Assembly (NCBI GenBank): GCA_003156805.1
Contig: PMHV01000036.1
Span: 1 to 62,575, forward strand
Length of the DNA stretch: 62,575 nucleotides
Source of the DNA: Acidobacteriaceae bacterium
Lineage (GTDB): Bacteria; Acidobacteriota; Terriglobia; Terriglobales; Acidobacteriaceae
Direction: 5' to 3'
In this document: in pieces, positions 8,128-23,087 of the stretch
Numbering within the stretch: position 1 is the stretch's first letter
Layout: each line of letters opens with the position of its first letter
Notes under the pieces: model-generated
Database searches by the model: none
Told to the model about the DNA's origin: nothing
Seen by the model: the letters and a program-made list of their open reading frames with translations, nothing else
Made by a program: the position numbers and the translations under genes

Positions 8128-8727
8128 ATGGCTCACATACAGCTTGCTGAAGGATTACCTGGCATTCGTGGCCCGATGGTGTTCAGCCCGGAAACCGCCA
8201 AGCCGCTAAGTGATCTGGCGCAAGTCCTGCTCACCGGTCCACACACTCTGACTCCAGCGGAACGGGAAATGATCGCGACGTATGTTTCCTCGCAGAACGA
8301 TTGCTACTACTGCCAAACTTGCCATGGTTCTGTAGCGGCGCAACATCTCGGGGGGAGCGACGCGGACTATGAGCTTATCGCCCAAATCAAACAGAACTAC
8401 CAGGCAACTCCGATTTCCGACAAAATGAAGGCGCTGCTGGCCATTGCGGGCAAAGTGCAAAAAGGCGGCAAGTACGTGACCACCAAAGATATCGAGCGGG
8501 CACGTCAGCACGGTGCAACCGACAAAGAAATCCACGACGCGGTCCTGATCGCGGCTGCGTTCTGCATGTTCAGCCGCTACGTGGACGGCCTAGCTACATG
8601 GCAGCCTCGCGATCCCGAGATTTGTCGCGAAATCGGAAAGCAGACGGCCAAACTCGGTTACGTGGGCCGGGATTACAGAAAGCCGCTGCAGGCAATCGCG
8701 GGCAAACAAGTCAAAGTGGAAGTCTGA
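8128..8727 (+). CDS. AhpD-like / carboxymuconolactone decarboxylase family protein (copy 1)
   Basis: 199-residue cytoplasmic all-helical protein. It has the AhpD redox motif CYYCQTCH inside the segment after REMIATYVSSQND, followed by the proton-relay type helix and KMKALLAIAGKVQKGG. Members reduce peroxides or disulfides through CxxC plus His; some members only share the fold. GGAGG lies eight bases before the ATG. The gene follows the TonB receptor by 27 bp and is followed by a paralogue after 23 bp. The two copies share most positions, including N-terminal (L/I)PEG(I/L)PGI and the C-terminal YVDGLATW, so they arose by tandem duplication. Confidence 0.85.
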   Translation: MAHIQLAEGLPGIRGPMVFSPETAKPLSDLAQVLLTGPHTLTPAEREMIATYVSSQNDCYYCQTCHGSVAAQHLGGSDADYELIAQIKQNYQATPISDKMKALLAIAGKVQKGGKYVTTKDIERARQHGATDKEIHDAVLIAAAFCMFSRYVDGLATWQPRDPEICREIGKQTAKLGYVGRDYRKPLQAIAGKQVKVEV

Positions 8728-8750
8728 TTTAGAAAACCAGGAGATTCTTT

Positions 8751-9323
8751 ATGGCACACATTCGACTACCGGAAGGTATACCCGGAATCCTCGGGCCGAT
8801 GGCCTTCAGTCCGGAAACGGCAAAACCGCTCAACGCGCTGGCGGAAGTGCTTCTCCGCGGGCCGAACAGTCTGGCTCCCGCGGAACGCGAAATGATCGCA
8901 GCCTATGTCTCTTCACAAAACGATTGCCACTTTTGCCAGAACGCTCATGGCGCCGTGGCTGCTTACCGTCTGGGTGGAAATGAAGAGCTCGTAAATGATG
9001 TGAAATTGAACTTCGAGTCAGCCGCGATATCCGACAAAATGAAGGCTCTGCTGGCGATTGCTGGTAAGGTGCAAAAAGAGGGCAAGCAAGTTACTACTCC
9101 AGATGTGGATTGCGCTCGCCAGCACGGCGCTACAGACAAAGATATCCACGACACGGTGCTCATCGCAGCCGCATTTTGCATGTACAACCGCTACGTCGAC
9201 GGTCTGGCAACTTGGGCACCCACCGATCCGGACATGTATCGCGAGAATGGCAGACGGCTGGCTGAAGAGGGCTACGTTCGGTCGACCGCACACTTACCGG
9301 CAGTTGAGAAAGAGCGTGCCTAG
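8751..9323 (+). CDS. AhpD-like / carboxymuconolactone decarboxylase family protein (copy 2)
   Basis: 190-residue paralogue of the preceding gene with the redox motif CHFCQNAH, KMKALLAIAGKVQKEG and YVDGLATW. Both active-site cysteines and the His are kept, so the copy is likely functional. A GGAG-type ribosome site precedes the ATG (AGGAGATTCTTT). The last 164 bp overlap, on the opposite strand, the 3' end of the CRTAC1-type gene. The order receptor-AhpD-AhpD suggests the enzymes act on, or protect against, something imported by the receptor; this is inference. Confidence 0.85.
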   Translation: MAHIRLPEGIPGILGPMAFSPETAKPLNALAEVLLRGPNSLAPAEREMIAAYVSSQNDCHFCQNAHGAVAAYRLGGNEELVNDVKLNFESAAISDKMKALLAIAGKVQKEGKQVTTPDVDCARQHGATDKDIHDTVLIAAAFCMYNRYVDGLATWAPTDPDMYRENGRRLAEEGYVRSTAHLPAVEKERA

Positions 9324-11235
9324 TTTCCGGCTTGCGCTGAACAACTTCCACCGAGAAATCTGCACGCCGGTGATAATGACGGCGATTGCGAGCGGTTACG
9401 GGAAAGACGATCGGCTGGGCGGAAATAATTCCTTTGCCTTCTTTCACTGTGATGAATTGATTGGGCTTGACGTTTGAGATCGAGTCCTTTTGGCCGCTGG
9501 GCCAAACAATCTCCAGGCTCACGGCCTTGCCACCTTCCGGTTTGCCGAGCCCAAAGGTAATTGGCAGCTCGCTTTGGGATAAATAGCTTGAACCAGTCTT
9601 AACCATGGCGAACAGGCGCGTTCCTTTGTTGGTTGTGACCGTGACCTTAGCGCCTATGCCATCGCGGTTCGATCGTGTGCCTACGGTCTTCACCCGCAGC
9701 ATGTCGTTCTGGTTTCCGTTGTCATTACGCAGCAGCCGCGCCGGCCCGTTGTTGGCTGTAATTAATAAATCCAGATCACCATCATTGTCAAAATCTCCAT
9801 AGGCTGCGCCGCGACCCACGATCGCCCGCTGCAGCGCGGGGCCGAGTTTCGTGGTCACTTCTTCAAATTTATTCTTGCCCAGGTTGCGGAAGAGATGAGG
9901 CGGTTGCGCATACTTGACGTTTGGCTGCACCACACTGATGTCGTCGGAGACGTGGCCGTTAACGGCAAGAATATCCAGCAGACCATCGAGGTCATAATCA
10001 AGAAAGAAAGTGCTGAAGGTAAGCGACTTGGTCGATATCCTCTTGATGCCCGTAGCGGGAGCTTCATCCGTAAACAAGCCCGAGCCATCGTTGTGGTAGA
10101 GCGCGATCCCCTCGTTCGTGAAGTTACCGATCACCAGGCTTTGCCATCCGGAGTTGTCGTAGTCGGCTGCATCCGTACCCATCCCAGCGCGCACCGTGCC
10201 CGCTTCGCCGTAAGCCACGCCGGCAGCGACTGCGACATCCGTGAAAGTACCATTGCGGTTATTGTGGTAGAGCTTGTTTGGTTCGGTGTCGTCGGAAACG
10301 AAAAGGTCGAGCCAGCCATCGTTGTCATAATCCAACAACGCGATGCCAAGCGATTTGCTCGTGGGATCGTAGAGACCGGCGCGCCGCGTTACGTTCTCAA
10401 ACGTTCCATCGCCCTTGTTGTGGAAGAGCGTCGAGCTTTGGCCTTTGTACCTCTGCGGAGTGCAATAAGACTTGTTCTTATTGTCGAGCGAACAGTATTG
10501 ATCCGTCTCAATGGACCAGTCGATGTAGTGGGCGACGAAAAGATCCAGCTTGCCGTCGTTGTCATAGTCAAACCACACGGCGCTTGCAGAAAATCCCGGA
10601 TCGGCCACGCCTGCTTTGACGGTAACGTCGGCAAACTTGCCATTGCCAAGATTGTGGAAGAGATGGTTGGACCCGACGGCGGTGATGTAAATGTCTTCAT
10701 AGCCATCGTTGTCATAATCGCCGACGGCACAGCCCATCCCGTACATTTCAACCGCGAGGCCGGTCTGCCGCGTCACATCGGTAAACGTTCCGTCTCTATT
10801 ATTGTGATACAGCGCGGGGAAGGATTTGCCAGACTTATGTCCCGGCCAGTCCATGGAATTGACCAGGAGAATGTCCTGCCATCCGTCATTGTCGTAATCG
10901 AGAAAGCATGCGCCGCTGCCCATGGTCTCCGGGAGATACTTTTTTCCGAAAGCACCACTGTTGTGTTTGAAGTGAATGCCTGCCTGGGCGGTGACATCCG
11001 TGAACTCGATCGGGCCGGAAGGACGCGAGGTCGTCACAGGCGAGTCCGGCGACGGCGAGACGGACGGAGGCGCAGGTGGCGTGGGAATTTGGGCTTGCGT
11101 TCCTGGTGCAGTCCCAGGCGCGCTCGATTGCTTTGGCTTGCAACCCACCAGAGCGAGGATCGCACACAATAGCAGACAGCAAGCGGCACCACCTTGCAAC
11201 ACGAGAGATTGAGTGCCCCCTTCGCCAATGATCAC
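9160..11235 (-). CDS. CRTAC1-type FG-GAP / ASPIC-UnbV lipoprotein
   Basis: Predicted exported lipoprotein: a hydrophobic stretch ends in LALVGC, then a Pro/Ser/Thr linker. The frame is open further up (to 11283), but the GTG at 11235 overlaps the TGA of the UnbU-like gene (GTGA), so that start is chosen. Several FG-GAP/VCBS repeats with DYDNDG calcium-binding loops (DYDNDGWQDILL, DYDNDGYEDIYI, DYDNDGKLDLFV and more) form a seven-bladed propeller, followed by an ASPIC/UnbV C-terminal domain (GTRSNRDGIGAKVTV, ITFGLGKPEGGKAVSLEIVW). The domain ends near 9330; the last 50 or so residues are Arg/His-rich and read antisense to the neighbouring AhpD-like gene, so the original stop was probably lost. 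Confidence 0.87.
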   Translation of the reverse strand: MIIGEGGTQSLVLQGGAACCLLLCAILALVGCKPKQSSAPGTAPGTQAQIPTPPAPPSVSPSPDSPVTTSRPSGPIEFTDVTAQAGIHFKHNSGAFGKKYLPETMGSGACFLDYDNDGWQDILLVNSMDWPGHKSGKSFPALYHNNRDGTFTDVTRQTGLAVEMYGMGCAVGDYDNDGYEDIYITAVGSNHLFHNLGNGKFADVTVKAGVADPGFSASAVWFDYDNDGKLDLFVAHYIDWSIETDQYCSLDNKNKSYCTPQRYKGQSSTLFHNKGDGTFENVTRRAGLYDPTSKSLGIALLDYDNDGWLDLFVSDDTEPNKLYHNNRNGTFTDVAVAAGVAYGEAGTVRAGMGTDAADYDNSGWQSLVIGNFTNEGIALYHNDGSGLFTDEAPATGIKRISTKSLTFSTFFLDYDLDGLLDILAVNGHVSDDISVVQPNVKYAQPPHLFRNLGKNKFEEVTTKLGPALQRAIVGRGAAYGDFDNDGDLDLLITANNGPARLLRNDNGNQNDMLRVKTVGTRSNRDGIGAKVTVTTNKGTRLFAMVKTGSSYLSQSELPITFGLGKPEGGKAVSLEIVWPSGQKDSISNVKPNQFITVKEGKGIISAQPIVFPVTARNRRHYHRRADFSVEVVQRKPETRHALSQLPVSVRSTERSPLQPAVCHSRDTCPDRWVPKLPDRRRSGCTCKMRLR

Positions 11236-12104
11236 TGCGCCACCGTTGGTGTCGCAGCGCGCGCGCGGCGCGAATCCAGCCAAATCTCGATCAGCATGGC
11301 GGCTGGACCCACAACGAAGAGGGCATAGAAAGGCGCGTAAACAATCTGGTTCAAGCGCAGCACCATTTCAAACAGCGCCACCAAGAATACGACCACGCAT
11401 TGTCCACTCTTGGAGCGAACCGTAGTCTTTGGATCGGTAATCATGAAGAAGATGAACAGTTGGTACATCGGACCGGTGATTGGTGCAATCTCCGACTGCC
11501 ACGGGCTTCCCGTCATCCAGCTTCGCAAAAATGCCAAAGCAATAAACGATGCAACGTAAATGCCAGTGATGTGAAAACGCCGGAGACGCCAGATAATGAC
11601 GGAGCCGAGCGTCCAGATGACGATCATGGGCCAAAGGTAATTGCCCCACTGGATGCTCAACGTGGCCACCGTCTCAGCCGCGAGAAACAGCATCACGGAG
11701 ATGCCGAAATTGGACGGGTTCCAGATATGGCGGTCCTTGACCCGCAACACGTATTTGGATGTGATGGAAATCGCGCTGCACAGCGCGTAAGGCCAAAAGG
11801 CTGGCGAGCGAATCAGAATGCCAACGCTGATGCCCGTGATGTAAGCGCTGGCGGGGTGGACCCATTTGTGAAAGAAAATCCTCCCGAGCACAAGTTCGAT
11901 CAGAATGCTTGTAATGATCGCCAGCAGCGTCTTCTGGTAGCTCTCGAGAATGCCGAATGACAGGTGACCGGCCAACAGAATGCAGGTAATGAAAGCGGGC
12001 GCGATGTATCGGTTGTCGAGACCAAACAGTGGATTCCGGTGGGCCGGCGCCTGAGGCGGCTGGATTTGAGGCGGAAAGACTGGCGCGCTCGTCTGCTGAC
12101 TCAC
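11232..12104 (-). CDS. UnbU-like integral membrane protein (RnfD/NqrB-related)
   Basis: 290-residue polytopic membrane protein with about eight to nine hydrophobic helices after a Pro-rich N-terminus. IWNPSNFGISVMLFL and FFMITDPKTTVRSKSG match the RnfD/NqrB/UnbU family (NP-x-N/A-FG and FFM-x-TDP motifs). UnbU was named as one of the conserved genes of actinobacterial enediyne clusters, next to UnbV. RnfD and NqrB carry covalent FMN at an [S/D]GAT motif; I do not see one here, so flavin loading is doubtful. It overlaps the upstream CRTAC1 gene by four bases and the downstream one by GTGA, so all three are coupled. Likely a membrane electron-transfer or transport partner of the propeller proteins. 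Confidence 0.8.
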   Translation of the reverse strand: MSQQTSAPVFPPQIQPPQAPAHRNPLFGLDNRYIAPAFITCILLAGHLSFGILESYQKTLLAIITSILIELVLGRIFFHKWVHPASAYITGISVGILIRSPAFWPYALCSAISITSKYVLRVKDRHIWNPSNFGISVMLFLAAETVATLSIQWGNYLWPMIVIWTLGSVIIWRLRRFHITGIYVASFIALAFLRSWMTGSPWQSEIAPITGPMYQLFIFFMITDPKTTVRSKSGQCVVVFLVALFEMVLRLNQIVYAPFYALFVVGPAAMLIEIWLDSRRARAATPTVAQ

Positions 12105-13912
12105 GCTGGCTCCTTCATCTTGTGCAGTTGATCCGCGGCAGGTTTGTCGATGGTCTGAATTTTGCCGGATGGCCAGTGAATCACGGCCTTCTCAATGTGC
12201 GGGTTCCTGCCAAGACCGAAATGCAGCCGGCGGTCATTCTGCGCGGCAAAACCGCTGCCGCCGGAAACCTCTTGCACCTGCTGCTGGCCATTCCAAAACA
12301 ATGTAACCTCGGCGCCGATCGCGCTGCGGTTACTCCCGCTGTGACTGGCGGTATTTCCTTCCAACTCAAATTCGATCCACTCGTTCCCGGGCGCGACGGT
12401 GTTCTTGTAAAGAAGCAATGGACCGTTTTGATTGGCAACAACAACGTCCAGCACACCGCGGTTCCACAAATCCACCAACGCCACGGAACGCCCATCATAG
12501 ACATCCGTAACGCCAACGGCCTGGGCGACATCGACAAACTTGCCGGCCCCATCATTTAACCAGACTCGCTTGGTTTGATAGCCCGACAAACTGCGTCCCT
12601 CAAACGCCGGCCAGTTCTTGGCATCGCCGATGATGGAACTGTTCCCGCCGGCGACTTTGGAAAAGTCGTACCAGTAACTTCGATTCCGGTCGAGAGAGAT
12701 GTAGCCGTTCGTAAGATACAGGTCGAGCGTTCCATCGTTGTTCAAATCGCCAAACTGCGCGCCAAAGCTCCATCCGCCAAGTTCCACGCCGAAGTCGCGC
12801 GCCAGGTTCTGATACTTGATCGTATCGCCCGCAGTGCCTTCCTTCGGCACCCACAAATTGTTGCCCTGGATGAGAATGCCGTCCTCCGAAATATTGGAAA
12901 CGTAAACGGCGTATCTGCCTTGATTGAGGATATCGCCAAATGCGGCATTCATACCGCTCTTGGGGGCGAAGCCGACACCCGCCTGTTCGCCGACCTCGTG
13001 AAACCGTTTGCCGTCGTTGAAGTAGAGTTCTGACACTCCATAATCATTCGCCACAAACAAATCGGGATGGCCGGTGCCGCGCAGATCAGCCGCAGCGGCA
13101 GCCAAGGCCCATCGCCGGCTGCTGATGCCAACTTTCTCGCTGACCTCTTCAAATTTGCCGTTGCCGAGATTGTGAAACAAATACTTTCGTCCGCCATTCT
13201 TGGCGTACTCGAAACTGTCGGGCATGATGCGCGTCGTTGTGAGATGCCAAAGATCGATGTCTTCGGAATAGTATCCGCCGACGAAAAGATCCAAAAGTCC
13301 GTCGCCGTCATAGTCGAACCAGATGGCCGTGTTCGCGTTGATCCAAGGCGGCAATCGAGCTTGCTCGGTTACTCGCGTGAAGCCGTGGCCCTGATCATTG
13401 TGAAATAACTCGGGACGCCCCCACTTGATCAGAAACAAATCTTCATATCCGTCGTTGTCAAAATCTCCCCAAACTGCCCCGGTCGAAACTCCGGTGCCGG
13501 GTTGGTTCACGTCAGCAATGCCCATATCTCCGGCGACGTCCTGGAATGTGCCGTCATGCATGTTGCGATAGAGGGCATTCTTGCTGCCGATAGCGCTGTT
13601 GGTGACATAGATGTCGGGCCAGCCGTCGCGATCGAAATCGACGATCGACACTGACGCGCCCATCGAAGCAACCTCCGGCGTGATGGGATCTAACTTGAGA
13701 TCGAGCCGGGGAGACTGATGTACAAAATTGATGCCCGCTGCGTGAGAGACTTCTTCGAGATAGAAGCCATGGCGAGCTAATGCCGTCTTCGCATCGATCT
13801 TCGATCCGCCGGCTTCACGCCCAGCCGACATCCGCTTAATAACGAAAGGAGTAGCCAGTAGCGCGATAAAGAAGAGAACGAGGAAGACCCTTGCGATCCG
13901 GTTGCCTGTCAT
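12101..13912 (-). CDS. CRTAC1-type FG-GAP / ASPIC-UnbV protein with N-terminal membrane anchor
   Basis: 603 residues. One N-terminal helix (about 8-25) serves as an anchor or uncleaved signal; no lipobox is seen. Repeated DxDxDG loops (DFDRDGWPDIYV, DFDNDGYEDLFL, DYDGDGLLDLFV, DLNNDGTLDLYL) mark a calcium-binding beta-propeller, and the end is an ASPIC/UnbV domain (SNRSAIGAEVTLFW, FGLGRNPHIEKAVIHWPSGK). It is a paralogue of the gene at 9160-11235. Both ends overlap neighbours by four bases (ATGA type), showing an operon. The protein should face the periplasm. Enzymatic activity is not known for this family; adhesion or scaffold roles are possible. Confidence 0.88.
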   Translation of the reverse strand: MTGNRIARVFLVLFFIALLATPFVIKRMSAGREAGGSKIDAKTALARHGFYLEEVSHAAGINFVHQSPRLDLKLDPITPEVASMGASVSIVDFDRDGWPDIYVTNSAIGSKNALYRNMHDGTFQDVAGDMGIADVNQPGTGVSTGAVWGDFDNDGYEDLFLIKWGRPELFHNDQGHGFTRVTEQARLPPWINANTAIWFDYDGDGLLDLFVGGYYSEDIDLWHLTTTRIMPDSFEYAKNGGRKYLFHNLGNGKFEEVSEKVGISSRRWALAAAAADLRGTGHPDLFVANDYGVSELYFNDGKRFHEVGEQAGVGFAPKSGMNAAFGDILNQGRYAVYVSNISEDGILIQGNNLWVPKEGTAGDTIKYQNLARDFGVELGGWSFGAQFGDLNNDGTLDLYLTNGYISLDRNRSYWYDFSKVAGGNSSIIGDAKNWPAFEGRSLSGYQTKRVWLNDGAGKFVDVAQAVGVTDVYDGRSVALVDLWNRGVLDVVVANQNGPLLLYKNTVAPGNEWIEFELEGNTASHSGSNRSAIGAEVTLFWNGQQQVQEVSGGSGFAAQNDRRLHFGLGRNPHIEKAVIHWPSGKIQTIDKPAADQLHKMKEPA

Positions 13913-16900
13913 CTGCCGGTTTCATCCCTCAATGCGTTCTTGAAGACCTCAGGAGTTATATAGCGCGTGTGATAGGTCTGCCAATCCTCGGGATGCTGCC
14001 GGTAGACCCACTCATCTTCAAGCCTGCCCGGCCGGGTCGTGTACTCATTCTTGGCGTGATACGGCAAAGGCAGCACGGTCTTGGAGAAAGTTGAGTTGTA
14101 ATCGCCGTCTTTGATCCAGCCGTCGCCGACGATTACGAAGTCGCGCACCCAGCCTGCGGGCGGAGGCGGCTGCTCAGCGAAACGCAGCGACAGCTCATCG
14201 CCGGAATTCACAATCACGTAACGGTCGTCGATTTTGTTGATCAGTTCGCGCACGTCGCCGTAGCGTGTGTAATAGCCGATCAGATCGCGCCAGCGCTGCT
14301 TGGTTCCTTCAATCTGGTTGTAGTCGGGAACTTCGGGCGCGCCCGCACCCACGGGCATGTGCATGATGGAATATCCGCGATAGTGCAAATCTGCAACGGT
14401 GGGATCTAAAGTGGCCGTTTTCAAAGGAGTATCCGGCGCGCCCTGCGCCCAATGAATCGCATCCCAGTAGATCTCCAGATTGGTGCGCAGCCGCACGCGG
14501 CGCGGAGTTCCGGGCCGAAAGACATTGGTCAGATTGAATAGAATTGTTTTTTTCCGTCCTGCGGGAAAGCCCAGATTGTCCTGAGCCGTAACCCAGCCGC
14601 CCCGTCCGTCCGGCACTTCAACGCTCAACCCGTGGGCACGCCAGCGGCTGCCTTGAGTGATGGCCACATTCACCGACGACTCTGTATCGTGAATCGAGCC
14701 CTGCGCAATCAAATACAGCGGACCACTTTTCGGCGCATCCTCGCCGAGATCCACTTCGAGATAGTGATCGCGCGTCACTCCCTGATACTGCCCGCGGCCA
14801 AAACTGGCAACGGCCCTTCCGTCGAGCGTACTGACGATGTCGGTGACGTCCTGACCGGTGTCATCGATGGCGCGCGCGATTTTGTGCGGCGTGGCCACGG
14901 TTGTGATGCCAAGCTTCAGCGGAGGAATTACGAAACGCTCATCGACAACAATCTCGGTGCCAACAGGATGGTCGACGGCCATGAGCGCCAGATAGTCGTA
15001 GTAGTAGACCTCCCATAACTCCGCGGTGATGCGTAGGTCGTAATAGCCGTCATGCGACGCGAGTTGGTCGCGCCCAATCTTGTACCACTCACCGGTGGCC
15101 GCGATCTGTGCGGAGCCAAGAGTATTGATGCGCAAACCAATGGCGGAGCCCCAGGGCACAGCGTCCTTCACAAACTCCATCCGCCTTCCGTTATAGGCGT
15201 AGAGAAACGGACACGAAGCCTTCAGGCGTTGCTCGGTCACAACCTCCGTGTCCGCCTTCACGCCAAATTCGGCGCGCACAGTACCATTTGGCCAGACCAC
15301 CCGCACCACCTCCGCCTGGGTTTGCTCTCCTAACCCGAAATGAAGTTGAGGGCCGGTGATCGGTTGCTTCTGCACCACTAAGCCGGAGCGAATTTCGATT
15401 TCGCCGCCAACGCCGAATGGGTTTATGCGTTGGTCGCCAACGGCTTGTACCGCGTGCGGCCGAACCACTTGCCAGTGATAATTCTTCGATCCTTGATTGA
15501 TTGCCTGCACCGGTTGTCCGTCGGCGGAAAGACCCAGGAGATCGAGCTTGCCATCCCCATTCAGGTCCGCTACGTCAAACACCAGCGCCGGTCCCGCCGG
15601 GTGGTTCAGCGGCGCGAAGTTGCCTTTGTCGTCGCCGAGCCAAATCAGCGCGCCGGCTGCGCTGGCGCCAGGCACATGCTTTGTCGAAGCCAGAAACAGA
15701 TCGAGTGCTCCATTATTATCGAGATCCGCTATGTGCAGGCGCGCCTCGCCCGCTAGATTGTTGGCAGCATCCGGCACTCGGGCAATCTCCGCCGTGTCCC
15801 AGCCTTGTCCTTCGTTCTTGTCGGAAATCCGAAGGATGGTGCCGTCAGCTTGCACTGCCAAAAGATCGAGCACGCCGTCGTTGTTCGCATCGGCCACTGC
15901 AATTGCTTTGACGAGCTGCAAACCGGCAGGAAGGGCCCGCTCGCGGAACTGGCCTTGCCGTTCATTCATAAAGACGTGCAACCGCCCCGCCCCATCGATG
16001 ATGGCGGCGTCGGGATTGCCGTCGCCATCAAGATCAGCCCAGGCAAATCCGCGCAAACCCGTGATTCCGGTGAAGGGGTGTATCGCCAGAAAGGTGCCGT
16101 CGCCGTTATTTCTTAATACAACAGGCAATCCGCCACTCGTGCCCAGCACGATATCGAGATCACCGTCCGCTTCAATGTCAACCGCCCACGCGCCGGTGTA
16201 GTGAGCATCGATCACGGACCTCGGCAATTTAGTCTGCGCAGTTACGTCGGTGAACGCGCCCGGGCTGTCCTGGCGGAACAGGCGCACGCCTCCCGCGCCC
16301 GCGAGCACCAGGTCGGTTTTGAAATCGTAGTTAAAGTCGATTTGAAGAATCCCCTCAGGCCATGGCGGAATATTAGATGGTCCGCCGGGAAACGGAAGCG
16401 TTGCGCCGCTGGACAAACGCACTTCGTGACCGTCGGCTTCGGCAACCACAGGCGCGCCGGCGCTGCCGAACTGGATAGCTCCAATCCAATTCCAGCGACG
16501 CCTGCCAGCATCCGGAACTGGCTGAGAGCCGAATCGGATGGCCATATCTGGCGGCGCCGGCCTGAAGATAGGCGATTCCAATCGCAGAAAGTGAGTGAAG
16601 GGCTGCGCTTCTTCCCCAGCCGGCGCCTTGATGATGGAGAGGCTCTGGCGGTACTCCGGAACGCGCATGAGCACATTGCGCAGAAAGGTGGTTCGGGTGG
16701 CGGCCACGCGTAAATCCGTGCCGGCCGCAGCAGTTTGCACCGCGGCAAACTGCTGCTGCACTTCCAGCGGCCATGCCGATGATCGAGCGCCAATTTGAGC
16801 TACTGCCGATTTCAGTGTTACAGCATCGCCGCGTTTCGCGGCGACACGGCTCAATTCGATCAAGGCTGCGAGATTGTCCGGCTGCGCCGCGAGAATTTTC

Positions 16901-17463
16901 TGAATCGTCTGCTGAAATTCGGCTCCGCTGTTGGCATCGCCCTGCCGTTCGATCTCTTCCGCAAGCGCATAAGCTGCCCGCAGGTTCTTCGGATTGAGGT
17001 CTACTGCCTCGCGCAGGTCGGCGATCGCTTCTGCGGAATGGCCGCGATCACCTTCAAGAATTCCAAGCAGATCGTAGATTTGGTCGTTTTGCGGGGCAAG
17101 ATCGCGCGCCCGTTCGAGTCTTTGCGCCGCCATGTCGTAGTTTCGCTGGCGCAACGCCAGTACTCCCCAGTTAGCCCAACCGGCGGGTTCTCCCGGCACG
17201 AGCTGGGTTACTTCGGAAAGTTTGCTCTCGGCGTGAACATCATCGCCGACCTGCAGCGCCGCCAATCCAACATAGAACGCCGAAACAACGTCGGCATATG
17301 CTTTCGAACCTATCTCAGGCAGCTTGGGGCCGGAATGGCATCCCGAGAGCACCGCTGCAAGGCTTCCGAGAAGGAAGCAGGCCACCACGCCTTGGGGAGT
17401 GACCGACCGCCTGTTACTCACAGCGGAAGCTCGCTCGCAATCGCTGAATGAATTGATGCACAT
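13909..17463 (-). CDS. Large TPR + FG-GAP + ASPIC/UnbV lipoprotein with a long unassigned C-terminal region
   Basis: 1184 residues, predicted lipoprotein (LAAVLSGC, Cys at about 42). TPR repeats span roughly 60-240 (for example LAPQNDQIYDLLGILEGD), followed by FG-GAP propeller repeats at about 360-640 (DADGDLDIVL-type loops) and an ASPIC/UnbV-like segment near 690-735 (GGEIEIRSG, HFGLGEQTQAEVVRVVWPNG). The last 440 residues (from about CPFLYAYNGRRMEFVKD) do not match a domain I can name; they hold two probable beta-sandwich stretches. TPRs on an exported protein suggest protein-protein docking. It overlaps the next gene by four bases. It is the largest member of the operon and may be its scaffold. 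Confidence 0.83.
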   Translation of the reverse strand: MCINSFSDCERASAVSNRRSVTPQGVVACFLLGSLAAVLSGCHSGPKLPEIGSKAYADVVSAFYVGLAALQVGDDVHAESKLSEVTQLVPGEPAGWANWGVLALRQRNYDMAAQRLERARDLAPQNDQIYDLLGILEGDRGHSAEAIADLREAVDLNPKNLRAAYALAEEIERQGDANSGAEFQQTIQKILAAQPDNLAALIELSRVAAKRGDAVTLKSAVAQIGARSSAWPLEVQQQFAAVQTAAAGTDLRVAATRTTFLRNVLMRVPEYRQSLSIIKAPAGEEAQPFTHFLRLESPIFRPAPPDMAIRFGSQPVPDAGRRRWNWIGAIQFGSAGAPVVAEADGHEVRLSSGATLPFPGGPSNIPPWPEGILQIDFNYDFKTDLVLAGAGGVRLFRQDSPGAFTDVTAQTKLPRSVIDAHYTGAWAVDIEADGDLDIVLGTSGGLPVVLRNNGDGTFLAIHPFTGITGLRGFAWADLDGDGNPDAAIIDGAGRLHVFMNERQGQFRERALPAGLQLVKAIAVADANNDGVLDLLAVQADGTILRISDKNEGQGWDTAEIARVPDAANNLAGEARLHIADLDNNGALDLFLASTKHVPGASAAGALIWLGDDKGNFAPLNHPAGPALVFDVADLNGDGKLDLLGLSADGQPVQAINQGSKNYHWQVVRPHAVQAVGDQRINPFGVGGEIEIRSGLVVQKQPITGPQLHFGLGEQTQAEVVRVVWPNGTVRAEFGVKADTEVVTEQRLKASCPFLYAYNGRRMEFVKDAVPWGSAIGLRINTLGSAQIAATGEWYKIGRDQLASHDGYYDLRITAELWEVYYYDYLALMAVDHPVGTEIVVDERFVIPPLKLGITTVATPHKIARAIDDTGQDVTDIVSTLDGRAVASFGRGQYQGVTRDHYLEVDLGEDAPKSGPLYLIAQGSIHDTESSVNVAITQGSRWRAHGLSVEVPDGRGGWVTAQDNLGFPAGRKKTILFNLTNVFRPGTPRRVRLRTNLEIYWDAIHWAQGAPDTPLKTATLDPTVADLHYRGYSIMHMPVGAGAPEVPDYNQIEGTKQRWRDLIGYYTRYGDVRELINKIDDRYVIVNSGDELSLRFAEQPPPPAGWVRDFVIVGDGWIKDGDYNSTFSKTVLPLPYHAKNEYTTRPGRLEDEWVYRQHPEDWQTYHTRYITPEVFKNALRDETGR

Positions 17464-17507
17464 TAGAAACCAGCTCCATCAGAAAGTAGCGTTCGGCAAT
17501 CGCGGGG

Positions 17508-18131
17508 TCAATTGGCGCGGCCCGCGTTGCCTGCCATTTGTGTTGTATTTGCTGCGCGATCCTCTTGCCCCAATTGCCCGTTCCTGCGCCGCCGCGCGCG
17601 CGAAACACCGCGGAGCCACAAGAATGCCACCAGGAGAAACGGCAAAAGATACAACAAAAGGTCCCACCGGCCAAACCCAGGCGGAGTCACTTCTACTTGA
17701 GCCGTTGCCTCGCCGCCGCCTTGCGAACTCTGCAGGACAAGACGCACGCGCCACAATTCCTGCCGGTCGAACTCGGCCTGAGCGTTGAATTGCACTTGTC
17801 CGTGCGATTTCACACGCTCGGCGGCATAAAACCTCTCAGGCAGCCGGCCGGTTACTGGCTGCACGCCTATCTTGATCTTGAGGTCATCTGGAACCCTACC
17901 GCCTGGCGCCGATTCCACAAATACGTAGAAAGCTCCGCTGCCCACGTCAGGATGAGTCCAAAGAGCAACTATACAAGGCCCAATCTTCTTGTTCTCAATA
18001 ATGGGAAACGGCGGGCCATTATGTGCGCTGGCTGGCAAAGGCAACATCAGCAAAAGCACAGCCAGAAGCCCAACCGGAATTTTTCCCCTACCTGTAAGGC
18101 GATTCGGCATCTCGTAAACAAACGCCACCAC
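17508..18131 (-). CDS. Exported membrane-anchored protein, predicted mature N-terminal histidine
   Basis: 207 residues from a GTG at 18131 (preceded by a GGTGGA-like site); an ATG at codon 8 is the alternative. A signal peptide ends at PLPASA (residue 36), so cleavage would leave His-Asn-Gly-Pro-Pro as the mature start. A beta-rich domain follows (LWTHPDVGSGAFYVFVE, about 54-75, then to about 150), then one C-terminal helix (about 160-180) and an Arg-rich cytoplasmic tail. I cannot name the family with certainty; small proteins of this kind are found beside FixH/YtkA-like genes. An N-terminal His is a feature of copper histidine-brace proteins such as CopC, so copper binding is a reasonable guess only. 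Confidence 0.65.
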   Translation of the reverse strand: MVAFVYEMPNRLTGRGKIPVGLLAVLLLMLPLPASAHNGPPFPIIENKKIGPCIVALWTHPDVGSGAFYVFVESAPGGRVPDDLKIKIGVQPVTGRLPERFYAAERVKSHGQVQFNAQAEFDRQELWRVRLVLQSSQGGGEATAQVEVTPPGFGRWDLLLYLLPFLLVAFLWLRGVSRARRRRNGQLGQEDRAANTTQMAGNAGRAN

Positions 18132-18155
18132 GATTCCACCATCATTCTGAACCGG

Positions 18156-19619
18156 CTATCCACTCATAAGCGTGGCGCGCATTTCCATCGGTTGCAACAT
18201 CAGCCACATCGACGCAAACCAGAGAACGAGGCAGACCGCCGCCCATGGAAGGAACGCCCTCAGGGGCCTATCCGGGGAATCGTCTTCCGCCAGACCGTAA
18301 GTCACCGCCAGGGAACCCGCAAATCCGAGCACCAGGAACCCGATCTCGATTACTTGCACGACGTTTGCTGGCAGGCCGGTCAACGCCCAACGGGGCTCTC
18401 CCAAGAAAGGCCGGCCTAAACTTGCGATCGCGTTTTGAGTAACGGGTATCACCGTGTAGAGTCCAGTCAAGAAGTGAAAGCAGTAGTGCGCCAGCCACAT
18501 ACCGAAGCCCAGAGGAACGAGGCCGTAGGCATATCTCACTGCCAGCGGCAATAGCGCGCGTGAACTGCGAGTCCATATGCGCGTCAACCATGCAGCTAGA
18601 CCAAGCAGCAGAATCGGTTCCACAATCAAGAAAAACGTGAAGATCAGGCCGAGCACAGGGGCTTCGTGACTGACATGCAGCATTCTTCCCAGCCACGTCT
18701 CCACGGCGTAGACGGGACTGACCATGCCAAAAGCATTCAGTAGCGCACCAAAGGCAAATATGATCGCCAGCGCTGCTAGATCCTTGCGGCGCGAGAAGTA
18801 ACCAATTCCAGAGCGGATAGGATCTACCATCAGCTCACGCGCCGGCAGCCGGCTCAAGATGCCAATGTTGTCGTGAGGGCAGGCATGAACGCAGTCCAAA
18901 CAGAAGGTGCAATCCATGTTCCCAACTTTGCGTGGCTGAAAGAGAGCCAATTCACAGCCGCGGATCATCACGAGATCCGAGACCGGCTCCCGCCTGCCAC
19001 GGATGCAGTCCTTCGTATGGCAGCGAGTGCAGACATCCTGGTCGCGCACTTTCACTTCGAACGGCGAAAGTGTGGAGGCCACAAAGTTGAATTGTCCGAT
19101 GGGGCAAACGAATTTGCAAAACGAAGCGTGCTTGAAAAACCCGTCAACCACGAGCACGGAGAGAAAGTAGGCCACAATCAGCCAGGCAGTCCACCACGGC
19201 GAGGACCAGAGATCGAACAGTTCGTAAGTAAAAAGGATCAGGACGAAGAGGCCAACCGAAAACCACTTGTTGCGCAACGCTCGGGGCCAGTTGAATCGAG
19301 GCCGAAAGACGCGTCGAGCCCATTGGCGCACCAGCATGAAGGGGCAGGCAAGACAGAAGAAGTTCCCCGCACAGAGCAGGACAAGCACCAGCACGCCGCG
19401 GAAGTGAAGCCAGCTAAGAGTTGTCGCCAGGTTCTTCGGCGCCAGAGTTGGTCCGAACAATCCGTGCAGGATCATTACGATGCTCACGACGAGCAGCGGG
19501 GCCTGCAGCAACGGGCGCGCATAACGCCAGCGGAATAAACCGCCCAGGCCGGGCACTCTCATCAAATCAAACGGAAGCGAATCAGGAGTTTCCAGGACCG
19601 GGATGGAGGATGGATTCAA
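18156..19619 (-). CDS. Polytopic membrane 4Fe-4S ferredoxin-type protein (NapH/NosR/CcoG-like)
   Basis: 487 residues with about ten membrane helices around a cytoplasmic iron-sulfur segment. Two CxxxCP motifs at helix ends (CLACPF near 90 and CKFVCPIGQ near 175) match the NapH/NosR family, and two clusters follow: CTRCHTKDC and CTFCLDCVHACP. The latter is a clear CxxCxxCxxxCP 4Fe-4S site; the former has CxxCxxxxC spacing and later cysteines (for example RGCELALF) could complete it. NapH-type proteins take electrons from quinol and pass them to periplasmic partners, so this gene gives the operon an electron-transfer role. It is eight bases downstream of the FixH/YtkA-like gene. Confidence 0.85.
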   Translation of the reverse strand: MNPSSIPVLETPDSLPFDLMRVPGLGGLFRWRYARPLLQAPLLVVSIVMILHGLFGPTLAPKNLATTLSWLHFRGVLVLVLLCAGNFFCLACPFMLVRQWARRVFRPRFNWPRALRNKWFSVGLFVLILFTYELFDLWSSPWWTAWLIVAYFLSVLVVDGFFKHASFCKFVCPIGQFNFVASTLSPFEVKVRDQDVCTRCHTKDCIRGRREPVSDLVMIRGCELALFQPRKVGNMDCTFCLDCVHACPHDNIGILSRLPARELMVDPIRSGIGYFSRRKDLAALAIIFAFGALLNAFGMVSPVYAVETWLGRMLHVSHEAPVLGLIFTFFLIVEPILLLGLAAWLTRIWTRSSRALLPLAVRYAYGLVPLGFGMWLAHYCFHFLTGLYTVIPVTQNAIASLGRPFLGEPRWALTGLPANVVQVIEIGFLVLGFAGSLAVTYGLAEDDSPDRPLRAFLPWAAVCLVLWFASMWLMLQPMEMRATLMSG

Positions 19620-19627
19620 CAGCTTGC

Positions 19628-20074
19628 CTAATTCGCTCGGACGTCCCTTACATCGATCTGTCGTTCCAGCTTTTTCCCGCCGGGCAGCGTGACATGGAGC
19701 AGGATAACCCAGTCACCCGCCATCTGAAACTCCAAGTGAGCTTGGTAACGGCCAGGCCCTGCTTCTTTCGCCTCCGCGAATACAGGACTCATACCCGCGT
19801 GCGACATGTCAGCCTCAACCGTGATGTGCGCTCCCGCTATGGGTCTAGCCGCGGCATCGGCTAACTTGAGAGTGACCGTAGCGGGGCCGACTCGTGCTGG
19901 TTCAGGCAAGATTTCGTGGTCAATCGCGACAATGGGTGGCGGCGGCTCGACCGGTCTGGAACAGCTCGCTGTGAGTAAAGCCGCAGCGCATGTGAACCCT
20001 GCGAACCATCTTGCCAGTTCCCGCCCCGAAAAGGGGGCAGACGCTATTTGATCAAGCGGCTCTTGCCAACTCAT
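19628..20074 (-). CDS. FixH/YtkA-like small exported protein (probable lipoprotein)
   Basis: 148 residues. The hydrophobic segment ends at LLTASC (Cys38), a somewhat atypical lipobox, so lipidation is likely but not sure. The mature part is one immunoglobulin-like beta domain of FixH/YtkA type: VTLKLADAAARPIAGAHI, then the Met/His-rich loop DMSHAGM, then GRYQAHLEFQMAGDWVILLHV. FixH acts in copper delivery and assembly of cbb3 oxidase, and the M-H-M loop would suit Cu binding. The start overlaps the upstream membrane gene by 23 bases; a later start would remove the overlap. Confidence 0.72.
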   Translation of the reverse strand: MSWQEPLDQIASAPFSGRELARWFAGFTCAAALLTASCSRPVEPPPPIVAIDHEILPEPARVGPATVTLKLADAAARPIAGAHITVEADMSHAGMSPVFAEAKEAGPGRYQAHLEFQMAGDWVILLHVTLPGGKKLERQIDVRDVRAN

Positions 20075-20654
20075 GGCGGCCCCACTCGCAGGTGCAGGCC
20101 GGGTTTCCCCGCTCGCCCTCGGGGGGAAACATGTGGTAGTACATGGCGACGACCATCGGGATGAACACCACTGAGTTGTAGAAAAGATGCAACTCGACCC
20201 GCGGGAAGATCAACTGCAGGACGCTGCATGGCACCGGCTTCCCCCAGAAATTATGGTGAAACGTGGCCTGCCAGATCAGCAGAAAGTGCTCGATGTGATG
20301 CCAGAATTGGATCCAAAACGCCACCATCCACCAGGTGTGCGACCGCCCGGTAAAGCCTTTGCGGAAAATCCACAATCCGATCAGCATCACTAAGGCGTAT
20401 CCGTAGTGCATTGATTCCGAGCTGACCAGCCACGGATACAACAAACCAACCATCCCCAGGGCCTTTGGCCGGGGCCAATGCATCACGTAAATCTGGTAAG
20501 CCTGAAACAGATGCTCGCCCCAATGCGCCAGCACAATAAACATAAAGATCTGCAGCGCGCGCTCATGCCAGCTCGTATTGAGCTTCTCGTAAAAACTTGA
20601 GCCCGCCACGGGTCTCGTCGCAAGGTTTGGAATGCTTGGATGCGAGACTGCCAT
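20052..20654 (-). CDS. His-rich polytopic membrane protein of unknown function, first gene of the UnbU/UnbV operon
   Basis: 200 residues with four to five hydrophobic helices and an unusual set of histidines at their ends: HWGEHLFQAY, ESMHYGY, WIQFWHHIEHFLLIWQ, HLFYN and YYHMFPPEGE. The tail ends with CTCEWGRHE. Paired His in helices (H-x3-H, HHxxH) look like a haem or di-metal membrane site. I do not recognise the family by name. As the first gene of a tightly packed set with an iron-sulfur membrane protein and a FixH-like protein, a redox role is plausible. The C-terminal end overlaps the next gene by 23 bases. Confidence 0.7.
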   Translation of the reverse strand: MAVSHPSIPNLATRPVAGSSFYEKLNTSWHERALQIFMFIVLAHWGEHLFQAYQIYVMHWPRPKALGMVGLLYPWLVSSESMHYGYALVMLIGLWIFRKGFTGRSHTWWMVAFWIQFWHHIEHFLLIWQATFHHNFWGKPVPCSVLQLIFPRVELHLFYNSVVFIPMVVAMYYHMFPPEGERGNPACTCEWGRHELARAA

Positions 20655-20925: not shown

Positions 20926-22263
20926 ATGGACGAGTTGCTGCCAAAAACTGAATCTACGTCCAGTGAGAAGGCGACGCTTTGCGATGTAACCGTGATCGGC
21001 GGTGGTTTAGCTGGAAAGGCAGCCTCTTTGCAGCTGGCAAAAGCCGGCCTCAGAGTCATCTGCATTGAGCCCGAGGAATCTCTCCGCCAGCCGGTCGGGG
21101 AGTCGCTGGATTGGTCGGCTCCCGATCTGTTGAGCGCGTTGGGACTTCCCATGAACGACCTGATAAGCGCGCAGATGGCGACCTGGAAACGACACGTCAC
21201 TGTGAGATTGCGCGACGGCACCTCCGCGCACTATATTCCGTCCGCCTGGCTCGCTGGATCGCCCTTTCGTGTCGAGTTGCGGACTCTACATGTTGATCGC
21301 CTGCGCTTGGACCGTGAACTTCTGAAGATGACGATTGGGAGCGGCGTCAAGCTTGTGCGAGACAAAGTTGTTGGGGTCGAAAGAAAGAGAAGGAATATCG
21401 CTTCGGTTCGCACCGCTGGGGGTGCACGGTTCTCTTCTCCTTGGTTTATCGATGCGTCAGGATTCACGACCTGCCTGCTGGCTCGGGAGTTCAATCTTCC
21501 CGCCATTCACAGTGGGCCCGTGAAGGTGGCGATGTGGAACTACTTCCCAGTATCTGAGTCCATCGAAGGGACGACCCTGTACTTGGACCCCATGCCGGCG
21601 GAATATCTCGAGTGGATTTGGGAGATCCCCGTCAGCACAGACATGGTCAGCGTCGGATATATCACGACCGGCGCAGCAATAAAGGCCAAGCGTGAACGCG
21701 GATCTCCAGTGGAAGACATTTTCCGCCAGCAACTGATGAAGTTCCCGCGCTTTGACCCGCTGCTGCGGGAAGGCGTTCTCAGCCCAACCAACGTGACTTC
21801 CTTCCGATCGCGAGTCCAGATCGGAGTAGCCGGGCCGAACTGGCTGATTGCCGGCGAAGCTGCGGCCATGGTTGATCCCATAACTGCGAACGGAGTTACC
21901 GCCGCTCTACGCCACGCAGCGGAAGCATCCAGCCTGATTCTGAAGTACCGCAGCCAAGGCCAACTTCCGCTCGGCGCAAGAGTGTCATACAGCAGCCGCA
22001 TTTTGCAAATGGCGAAGTTTTTTAATGGGGGAATCGAGAAGATCGTATATGAGCCGCCGGTCAGGAATCGCATCGGCGTGCAACGCTCGGGGACCGTCTA
22101 TACCAGCCCAGCATGGAGCATGAACGTTGTGTACGCACGCATGAAACCACGGGGAATCGTTGCTACGTTTCTTCTCGGGCTATTTCTTGGCGTATTCCGG
22201 GCAAGTGCGTGGATCCTTTATCAATTCTGCAAACGGCTGGCGCCCGCGGTCGGACCGGCTTGA
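20926..22263 (+). CDS. FAD-dependent oxidoreductase with flavin-dependent halogenase hallmarks
   Basis: 445 residues. The N-terminal FAD motif is VIGGGLAGKAASLQLAKAG (GxGxxG, about 22-40). In the middle LEWIWEIPV carries the WxWxIP motif that separates flavin-dependent halogenases from ordinary monooxygenases, and WLIAGEAAAMVDPITANGV is the GD-type FAD ribose motif with Asp replaced by Glu. The C-terminus has a hydrophobic helix (VATFLLGLFLGVFRASAWIL) that could bind the membrane. Halogenases need FADH2 from a separate reductase; none is seen here. It could also be a geranylgeranyl-reductase-like or halogenase-fold monooxygenase. It is followed after 32 bp by an alpha/beta hydrolase, probably in one operon. 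Confidence 0.7.
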   Translation: MDELLPKTESTSSEKATLCDVTVIGGGLAGKAASLQLAKAGLRVICIEPEESLRQPVGESLDWSAPDLLSALGLPMNDLISAQMATWKRHVTVRLRDGTSAHYIPSAWLAGSPFRVELRTLHVDRLRLDRELLKMTIGSGVKLVRDKVVGVERKRRNIASVRTAGGARFSSPWFIDASGFTTCLLAREFNLPAIHSGPVKVAMWNYFPVSESIEGTTLYLDPMPAEYLEWIWEIPVSTDMVSVGYITTGAAIKAKRERGSPVEDIFRQQLMKFPRFDPLLREGVLSPTNVTSFRSRVQIGVAGPNWLIAGEAAAMVDPITANGVTAALRHAAEASSLILKYRSQGQLPLGARVSYSSRILQMAKFFNGGIEKIVYEPPVRNRIGVQRSGTVYTSPAWSMNVVYARMKPRGIVATFLLGLFLGVFRASAWILYQFCKRLAPAVGPA

Positions 22264-22295
22264 ATTGTCAATGCTGTTGAGAAGGGGAGAATTGC

Positions 22296-23087
22296 ATGTA
22301 TCTGCTTTCTCGCGGATCAGGTTATCCGGTCTTGTTCATACACGGCATACCAACCAGCAGCCAGCTTTGGAGCGGGGTCATCGACAAGATGCGGGGACGC
22401 TTCACTTGCCTGGCTGTCGATCTGCCCGGCCTCGGGAGGACTCCCAAGGATCGTTATATTGTCAACCAGTTGGAAGCGCTTGCCGACGAGATCGACAGAA
22501 TCAGAGTGGAACACTGCATCGATAAGTGGCACGTCGTAGGCCATGACGCCGGGTCCGCGATCGCGGTGCATTATGCATACCGGTTTCAAGAGCGCGTCGA
22601 CCGTCTGGCACTGTTGTCGCCAGCAGTGTTTCCCGATCTGAAGCCTTTTCATATGTTCCGTATCATCAGGCGGCCGGTCATTGGCGAGTTACTCGCGCCG
22701 GTGGTGAACGCCATTTTCTGGAACATCGCAATGCGAGACGCGATGGAACAACAGCGGGCGGAATTGAGCGGCGTTGTCGAGGATTTTCACGCCCCTTTTT
22801 CCGGTCCATTGGGCGCATGGCGTTTGATGTCAGTACTGCGGTTTGGGGATCCCTCGGAGGTTCTGGCTTCCATCCCGGCGATGTTGCCACAGCTTCTGAT
22901 CCCTACGCTCATTTTTCAGGGCTCACGCGATAAAGCCGTGCCTGAAATGTTCGCGCGGCGAGTCTCTGCCTTGATTCCACAATCTGAAGTCATTATGGTC
23001 GACTCGGGACATTTTATTCCCCTGAACAATCCTGAAGTTGTTGCCGCGGAGCTCCTCCGCTTCTTCGAGGGAGCCGCCAATGCCTAG
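22296..23087 (+). CDS. Alpha/beta hydrolase with Asp nucleophile (haloalkane dehalogenase / epoxide hydrolase type)
   Basis: 263 residues, compact cytoplasmic alpha/beta hydrolase. The oxyanion segment is HGIPTSS (about 17-23), the nucleophile elbow is VVGHDAGSA with Asp in place of Ser, the acid is probably the Asp of GSRDKAVPE, and the base is the His of DSGHFIPL. An Asp nucleophile is typical of haloalkane dehalogenases and epoxide hydrolases, which form an ester with the substrate carbon. AAGGGGAGAATTGC precedes the ATG at good spacing. Its position right after a halogenase-like gene makes dehalogenation or epoxide opening of the same pathway intermediate worth testing. Confidence 0.82.
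   Translation: MYLLSRGSGYPVLFIHGIPTSSQLWSGVIDKMRGRFTCLAVDLPGLGRTPKDRYIVNQLEALADEIDRIRVEHCIDKWHVVGHDAGSAIAVHYAYRFQERVDRLALLSPAVFPDLKPFHMFRIIRRPVIGELLAPVVNAIFWNIAMRDAMEQQRAELSGVVEDFHAPFSGPLGAWRLMSVLRFGDPSEVLASIPAMLPQLLIPTLIFQGSRDKAVPEMFARRVSALIPQSEVIMVDSGHFIPLNNPEVVAAELLRFFEGAANA

Follow-up and report, generated by a model that had tools for sequence, protein, structure and literature searches.

The enediyne polyketide synthase (PKS) cassette consists of five genes, E3/E4/E5/E/E10 (PMC5181780), and the conversion of the PKS polyene into the enediyne core was mostly unknown as of 2022 (PMC8725005). The locus described here is an operon of eight genes on contig PMHV01000036.1 (assembly GCA_003156805.1) of an Acidobacteriaceae bacterium. 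The whole stretch that was analysed, 62,575 nucleotides of the forward strand (positions 1 to 62,575), is called the window. Among the operon products are UnbV and UnbU proteins, which we take to be E4 and E5 of the cassette, respectively, and for which we know of no assigned role. The operon is a real, conserved unit and has two separable parts: a four-gene module (HisTM, YtkA-like, NapH-like 4Fe-4S and HisN) and a TPR-UnbV/UnbV/UnbU triad. HisTM and HisN are labels coined in this analysis.

An earlier note on this DNA read the operon as an envelope redox machine, with electrons passing from quinol through the 4Fe-4S protein to periplasmic propellers, and kept it apart from antibiotic synthesis. 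Its single conserved envelope operon, the co-occurrence of the genes and the lack of an enediyne PKS all stand; the separation from antibiotic synthesis and the electron flow to the propellers are not supported. The note overlooked the 200-aa (amino acids) HisTM as the key part, as well as the two-module structure. No published report of the operon was found in the open-licence literature, a scope outside which most subscription journals lie; in the same literature UnbU, UnbV and enediyne never occurred together, and mentions of UnbV were mostly unrelated.

Organization of the operon

The operon comprises eight open reading frames at 9160-20654, all on the minus strand and running head to tail. 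In the order of transcription they encode HisTM, which is probably a membrane protein and belongs to no named family (200 aa, 20052..20654); the YtkA-like protein (148 aa, 19628..20074); a NapH/MauN-like membrane 4Fe-4S protein (487 aa, 18156..19619); HisN (207 aa, 17508..18131); a TPR-FG-GAP-UnbV protein, likely a lipoprotein (1184 aa, 13909..17463); UnbV2, an FG-GAP propeller with UnbV_ASPIC (603 aa, 12101..13912); UnbU, an RnfD-related membrane protein (290 aa, 11232..12104); and UnbV3, an FG-GAP/UnbV protein that is likely a lipoprotein (707 aa as called, 9160..11283). As the earlier note had described, no intergenic gap exceeds 44 bp. The 200-aa and 148-aa genes overlap by 23 bp, gaps of 8, 24 and 44 bp precede the 487-aa, 207-aa and 1184-aa genes, and 4-bp overlaps are present at both the 1184/603 and 603/290 junctions. 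UnbV3 as called begins with TTG and overlaps UnbU by 52 bp. The UnbU stop codon shares the sequence GTGA with a GTG at 11235, which is for this reason probably the true start.

Alignments of UnbV3 with six orthologues stop at residue 625-627 in five and at 682 in one. Its 3' end (9160-9400) extends about 80 codons beyond most relatives and overlaps a convergent carboxymuconolactone decarboxylase (CMD) gene by 164 bp; this tail is doubtful, and a lost stop codon or a frameshift is possible. FG-GAP_3 and UnbV_ASPIC exceed the Pfam cut-offs in all three large proteins (1184, 603 and 707 aa). Neither a tRNA nor an Rfam family at gathering score was found in the window. A shared operator 5' of HisTM was considered and rejected: 29 upstream regions have 8 common 8-mers, against at most 4 in shuffles, and several of these join and look like the ribosome-binding context of close relatives.

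Conservation and distribution

The phylum sample consisted of 297 genomes of the window's phylum. UnbU is present in 33 of these, with 34 matches: identity is 59-100% for 14, counting that of the window, and 23-37% for the remaining 20. The neighbourhoods of the 33 matches outside the window were retrieved for comparison. At the 13 other close loci UnbU adjoins UnbV2 in every case, and a homologue of the 1184-aa protein is present at all 11 whose contig extends to it. The four-gene module is found at only one of the 13 (L055), downstream of UnbU and not upstream of the TPR gene. HisTM occurs in three of the 297 genomes, the window's own, G014 (L055) and G257 (L073), each time within 8 kb of UnbU; in L073 it sits inside a cluster of PKS, DUF1702-like, UnbV and UnbU genes. 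The operon is patchy, since the sole same-genus genome listed lacks UnbU.

One genome for each of 84,980 species was scanned with the HisTM alignment. The best 80 of 303 relatives were kept, a sample that leans to close relatives. The gene for the 4Fe-4S protein lies directly downstream of HisTM at 61 of the 80 loci and is present at 56 of the 70 that have at least 2.5 kb downstream. Among the 39 loci that have this gene and at least 9.5 kb downstream, 28 carry UnbU and UnbV2, and 24 the TPR-UnbV gene. The exact order of the window, from HisTM to UnbU, is kept at 23 of the 28; of the other five, L154 has divergent Unb genes, and L159, L178, L188 and L205 lack the TPR gene. The record titles of the 28 name Acidobacteriota groups (15), Planctomycetota (nine; Stieleria, Rhodopirellula, Roseiconus and others), a Rhodothermia (one) or just a bacterium (three). 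The gene order is kept across phyla, and the layout varies while the linkage stays. The neighbourhood check proposed in the earlier note thus bore out the co-occurrence of UnbU, UnbV and NapH-like genes in Acidobacteriota and Planctomycetota. Because the gene set recurs in distant genomes, the operon is more than a product of chance, and its eight genes almost certainly constitute a conserved functional unit.

Eight HisTM loci have UnbU and lack the 4Fe-4S gene: five with FAD halogenase-like genes, two of Paenibacillus, and L194, whose contig stops 570 bp past HisTM. Three of the five FAD-bearing loci have less than 3 kb after HisTM. Neither 4Fe-4S nor Unb genes were found in the 10 kb downstream of HisTM in L130, L163, L168, L176, L202 and L204.

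HisTM and enediyne-type clusters

HisTM has no significant match in Pfam, NCBIfam or PDB. Its motifs are H44-W-x-E-H48, Q51, Q54, E80-x-x-H83, W118-H-H-x-E-H123, R152, H156, Y159, N160 and C187-x-C189. In an alignment of 93 sequences (that of the window, 80 from the scan and 12 more, enediyne-linked copies included), H30, H44, E47, H48, Q51, Q54, E80, H83, H119, E122, H123, Q129, R152, H156, Y159 and N160 show no substitution wherever there is no gap; H120 is kept in all but one, and at residue 154 there is E in 84 sequences and Q in 8. If helical, each of four stretches carries the hand-picked conserved positions on one face (resultants 0.81, 0.81, 0.61 and 0.83; no control). HisTM is, in our estimate, likely to be a metalloprotein.

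A search of 72,556 plasmid records with HisTM gave 14 matches, 12 of them from Streptomyces, where HisTM is annotated merely as hypothetical. Inspection of the annotated neighbourhoods placed all 12 Streptomyces copies in enediyne-type clusters. In 11 of them a gene of PKS size, in one case annotated as SDR, lies within about 6 kb of HisTM together with UnbU, CRTAC1 (UnbV) and two DUF1702 genes; in the remaining record, NBC_00846, PKS, SgcE6 and P450 genes are present in the HisTM flank examined. HisTM of the C-1027 producer S. globisporus (WQO_RS34010) is 59% identical to that of the window and lies beside the C-1027 UnbV/UnbU/PKS genes. About 150 bp separate its start from an oppositely oriented HTH gene, which we infer to be sgcE1, the name of an HxlR-type gene of the C-1027 cluster (PMC2657911). 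The other two plasmid copies were from Nonomuraea, with no Unb gene within 12 kb on either side, and Geminocystis, with none in about 11 kb. UnbU matched 49 of the plasmid records, 46 of them from Streptomyces.

These results do not support a clean split between a redox machine and antibiotic synthesis, as drawn in the earlier note, and neither does the occurrence of the triad beside biosynthesis-type genes in other genomes (see below). The statement that no enediyne PKS is present was correct: none was found in the window's genome (95% complete), where the closest match to a PKS of enediyne type reaches 30% across 690 aa. A HisTM/UnbU/UnbV core would then be common to the operon and to enediyne maturation.

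Related arrangements were seen elsewhere. Paenibacillus loci L192 and L195 have DUF1702, UnbV and UnbU with HisTM and a small His/Met-rich protein; by eye, they carry apparent single ketoreductase (KR) and, in L192, ketosynthase (KS) genes, not one large PKS. On a Serratia proteamaculans plasmid (L217), DUF1702, VCBS/UnbV and RnfD-type UnbU genes cluster with single KS and SDR genes, with no HisTM match.

Other proteins of the operon

The YtkA-like protein matches Pfam YtkA with 44.8 bits and has a lipobox-like Cys38. An M-x-H-x-G-M motif is present in all 58 homologues found, and a lipobox-like pattern in 29 of these. HisN, which has no Pfam family, has a likely signal peptide ending ahead of His37 (A-H-x-G-P-P) and, by hydropathy, a hydrophobic segment at the C-terminus. 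H-x-G-P-x-x-P was found in 56 of 59 HisN homologues, with Ala before the His in 52.

In the 4Fe-4S protein, Cys 89, 92, 168, 172, 197, 200, 205, 222, 237, 240, 243 and 247 are invariant (61 sequences), and W375-x-x-H378-Y-x-x-H382 is also present. All 21 family members tested show similarity to NCBIfam napH_. The family assignments of the earlier note are backed by Pfam and NCBIfam, with the reservation that the NapH similarity is under the model cut-off (34 bits for the window protein vs 213). The family matched no CcoG model at E 0.01, and no PDB relative of the protein was found. In L114 and L115 a CtaG domain is fused to a homologue of this protein; the L114 copy follows a cytochrome b/c gene. 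HisTM was considered as a CtaG relative on account of these fusions and rejected, with an hhalign probability of 5% against a two-sequence template and no Pfam CtaG match.

The 1184-aa protein combines TPR, FG-GAP and UnbV, and has invariant residues in 27 sequences; no PDB relative of its conserved C-terminal region (about 745-1184) was found by phmmer. For UnbV2, a PDB search at E 0.01 yielded a single relative, CRTAC1 (Cartilage acidic protein 1; 9etn, E 1.8e-16). A simple hydropathy scan gave a hydrophobic N-terminus in all three UnbV proteins of the window, UnbV2 included, and in four of seven from PKS-type clusters (S. clavuligerus, Serratia, L073 and Paenibacillus), which suggests that the UnbV proteins of PKS-type clusters are exported. 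The window's genome has 14 UnbV_ASPIC matches over the cut-off, three of them in the operon; among the others is a distant TPR-UnbV paralogue on contig C3 (26% identity).

UnbU exceeds the cut-off of Pfam NQR2_RnfD_RnfE (29.6 bits; cut-off 27.7) and is 29-32% identical to four UnbU proteins from PKS-type clusters. It matches RnfD chain 8ahx_D (E 2e-5) in two halves with a gap between: about 15 profile positions of UnbU face about 81 residues of 8ahx_D, so that about 65 residues are missing. In L061, L062, L064, L067, L071 and L072, a distant UnbU-like gene is followed by a gene that looks by eye like DUF2330, possibly a third UnbU context. The Metabacillus plasmid pB218 (L210, 9300-10687) carries a two-gene unit of an UnbU homologue (35%) and a redoxin-domain protein near mercury/copper genes.

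Neighbouring genes

Two AhpD-like CMD genes (8128-9323, plus strand) abut the end of the operon. AhpD-like CMD homologues are present at six Acidobacteriota HisTM loci, and on Streptomyces plasmids HisTM has CMD or peroxidase-related genes in its vicinity. At 20926-23087 (plus strand), divergent from the operon, are an FAD gene with a Trp_halogenase Pfam match and an alpha/beta hydrolase gene. The FAD gene is QhpG/GoxB-like, below the NCBIfam cut-offs. It was considered as an operon partner and rejected, being the best-scoring match nowhere in the 80 HisTM loci (weaker overlapping matches are hidden in this count).

SsuABC-like ABC transporter genes stand beside the triad at loci without the four-gene module (L047, L050 and L051, with relatives in L049 and L056). 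They are divergent from the TPR-UnbV gene in L047, L049, L050 and L051. The transporter genes were assigned by family tests for L047 and by homology for the rest. An alginate-export-like porin, named by eye, was rejected as a constant part: homologues that group with it occur in 21 of 81 loci, only 12 lie within 5 kb upstream (tblastn), and none adjoins the window operon.

Proposed function and alternatives

The operon is tentatively read as a metal-dependent oxidation module of the envelope that has its HisTM/UnbU/UnbV core in common with enediyne maturation, a reading to which we give somewhat less than an even chance. HisTM would be a membrane metalloenzyme in which His and Glu on the four stretches bind a di-metal or copper centre. 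The YtkA-like protein, by its M-x-H-x-G-M motif, and HisN, by its likely mature N-terminal His, may load or protect this metal, and the NapH-like protein may pass quinol electrons to HisTM. UnbU would act as an RnfD-type membrane scaffold holding a lipophilic substrate or an electron carrier, and the exported UnbV propellers may bind or hand on the product. Together with UnbU and UnbV, HisTM would catalyse an oxidation, such as a desaturation or a hydroxylation, on the outer side of the inner membrane. In enediyne clusters it would act on the polyene made by the PKS, and in this genome, where no such PKS was found, on another membrane molecule.

Motifs of COX1, multicopper proteins, CuA and P-type ATPases were found at none of the 80 HisTM loci, in 1.23 Mb around them, and the client of the metal is therefore probably within the module. 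A small metal-motif protein following HisTM points the same way: a Cys/His-motif protein is next after it in the 8 Streptomyces cases read, a His/Met-motif one in 2 Paenibacillus, and the M-x-H-x-G-M YtkA-like protein here. That the reaction type is the same as in enediyne clusters may be true, at odds a little below even. Unlikely, in our estimate, is the fullest version, in which HisTM is the first member of a new membrane metalloenzyme family and, with UnbU and exported UnbV, oxidises polyenes or related lipids extracytoplasmically; HisTM would then be an unrecognised component still missing from the route to the 9-membered enediyne core. The acidobacterial and planctomycete operon would be the equivalent without a PKS, with a dedicated supply of metal and of electrons from quinol.

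Several observations weigh against the metal-dependent oxidation module. The blocks are separable, and some HisTM loci lack Unb genes. No HisTM at all is present in 12 of the 13 other close-triad genomes, and 11 of the 39 long-enough module loci lack UnbU (L137, L142, L144, L152, L158, L175, L182, L184, L190, L197 and L199). In the flanks examined, HisTM stands without 4Fe-4S or Unb genes in Kitasatospora, Lentzea, Actinosynnema, L130, L163, L168 and Nonomuraea, and the gene after it in Lentzea and Actinosynnema encodes a different membrane-type protein. HisTM is not needed in every UnbU cluster, because UnbU plasmids of S. clavuligerus, Serratia and Sinorhizobium have no match to it. The linkage of HisTM to enediyne genes in Streptomyces could be one inherited event, as the actinobacterial HisTM proteins cluster in a midpoint-rooted FastTree tree (support values not printed); the enediyne-linked copies are mixed with others there, and the L073 copy is among them on a long branch. 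The membrane spans of HisTM are putative because no stretch of it exceeds the 1.6 Kyte-Doolittle cut, which the UnbV proteins of C-1027, NBC_01178 and L070 also miss. The oxidase-motif search used short patterns, in open stretches of at least 120 aa.

An envelope electron-transfer chain that runs from quinol through the NapH-like 4Fe-4S protein and UnbU to the periplasmic UnbV propellers, serving respiration or the reduction of an external acceptor, is improbable. NapH-like and RnfD-like proteins have been proposed for extracytosolic electron transfer (PMC8238504), and the NapH similarity of the 4Fe-4S protein and the RnfD relationship of UnbU are consistent with such a chain. In L078 a distant UnbU-like gene follows an ApbE-like gene (ApbE by eye). 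The first step, from quinol to the 4Fe-4S protein, is plausible from the NapH similarity. The later flow to the propellers, as proposed in the earlier note, is supported neither by UnbV2, which has no invariant Cys in 34 sequences, its invariant residues being mostly propeller-type Asp/Asn and one His, nor by UnbU, which lacks the middle segment of RnfD. Further points against the chain are that no FMN_bind domain match was found in the operon proteins and that HisTM and the triad are tied to biosynthetic clusters.

In another alternative the operon serves natural-product maturation or self-protection, the partner enzymes of the triad (FAD halogenase-like, radical SAM, asparagine-synthase-like) being elsewhere or lost here; we consider this unlikely, at about the same level. 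An FAD halogenase-like gene lies at most 5.4 kb from UnbU in seven close loci (L047, L050, L051, L052, L053, L055 and L056). By homology, a radical SAM gene that resembles RaSEA below the cut-off is present in five of them, and a gene of the asparagine-synthase-like kind in three. A search of the 297 phylum genomes with the L047 FAD gene gave 27 matches at E 1e-40. The close triad is held by 7 of the 11 with at least 48% identity (vs 14 of 297; P 2.8e-8, with the cut picked after the list was viewed and kinship uncorrected) and by 8 of all 27 (P 3.4e-6, kinship uncorrected); in the 7, the distance of the FAD gene from UnbU is at most 5.4 kb. HisTM, UnbU and FAD halogenase-like genes are joined at five loci, four titled Gemmatimonadetes, -ales or -aceae and one unidentified. 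The window has its own FAD halogenase-like gene, the divergent one, which differs from that of L047. Against this explanation, the window's genome has no match to the L047 FAD gene at E 1e-40, this type does not appear in the examined flanks of any of the 28 loci that have both the module and UnbU, and the broad conservation in free-living phyla resembles core physiology more.

Copper handling, in which a CcoG/FixH-like reductase and chaperones load a respiratory oxidase while UnbU and UnbV store or deliver the metal, is the least probable of the three, in spite of the YtkA and HisN motifs, the CtaG fusions of related 4Fe-4S proteins and the fact that CcoG, also a 4Fe-4S protein, reduces cupric copper (PMC7558416): that copper is loaded into a terminal oxidase was rejected, as the oxidase and P-type ATPase motifs searched were not found near the 80 loci, the 4Fe-4S family matches NapH/MauN and no CcoG model, and the presence of HisTM in enediyne clusters is left unexplained.

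Under the metal-dependent oxidation reading, the position of HisTM beside enediyne genes could reflect an unexplained oxidation step common to both settings. An operon that has these core genes without a PKS, and a putative electron and metal supply, is a simpler system for studying UnbU and UnbV, and HisTM, nearly invariant and unnamed, becomes a test case in the C-1027 producer.

Comparison with known systems

By the tests run, the operon is not an Rnf, CcoG or flavinylation system. With RnfD/NqrB, UnbU shares both membrane halves, including the NP-x-N and FFM-x-TDP stretches, and differs in lacking the FMN-bearing segment between them, in which the flavin Thr of RnfD presumably lies. No Rnf/Nqr partner subunit is among the eight operon proteins, the rest of the genome not having been searched for these. 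Like the NapH/MauN and NosR/CcoG types, the 4Fe-4S protein has CxxCP, CxxxCP and Cys sets for two 4Fe-4S clusters; unlike NapH/MauN, it scores far under the napH_ cut-off and has an extra C-terminal part with H-Y-x-x-H. The operon differs from ApbE-flavinylated NapH-like systems in that none of its eight proteins matches FMN_bind, and from CcoG/FixGHIS copper assembly in that neither a CcoI ATPase nor an oxidase motif was found near the 80 HisTM loci. The CtaG-4Fe-4S fusions resemble it in joining a multi-His membrane domain to a 41-44% identical 4Fe-4S domain, whereas HisTM is not recognisably CtaG. HisTM was also considered beside membrane di-iron or copper oxygenases, a comparison that draws on its conserved residues.

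The operon is not an enediyne cassette either. It has no PKSE (E), DUF1702 (E3) or thioesterase (E10) among its eight proteins (the rest of the window's genome was not searched for the latter two), and it adds a second, TPR-carrying UnbV and the NapH/YtkA/HisN module. It shares with the cassette adjacent UnbV and UnbU genes, in the order of C-1027, and a HisTM homologue lies beside C-1027-type clusters. By analogy, the operon would work most like the UnbV/UnbU part of the enediyne cassette if that part stood alone and were provided with its own electron and metal supply.

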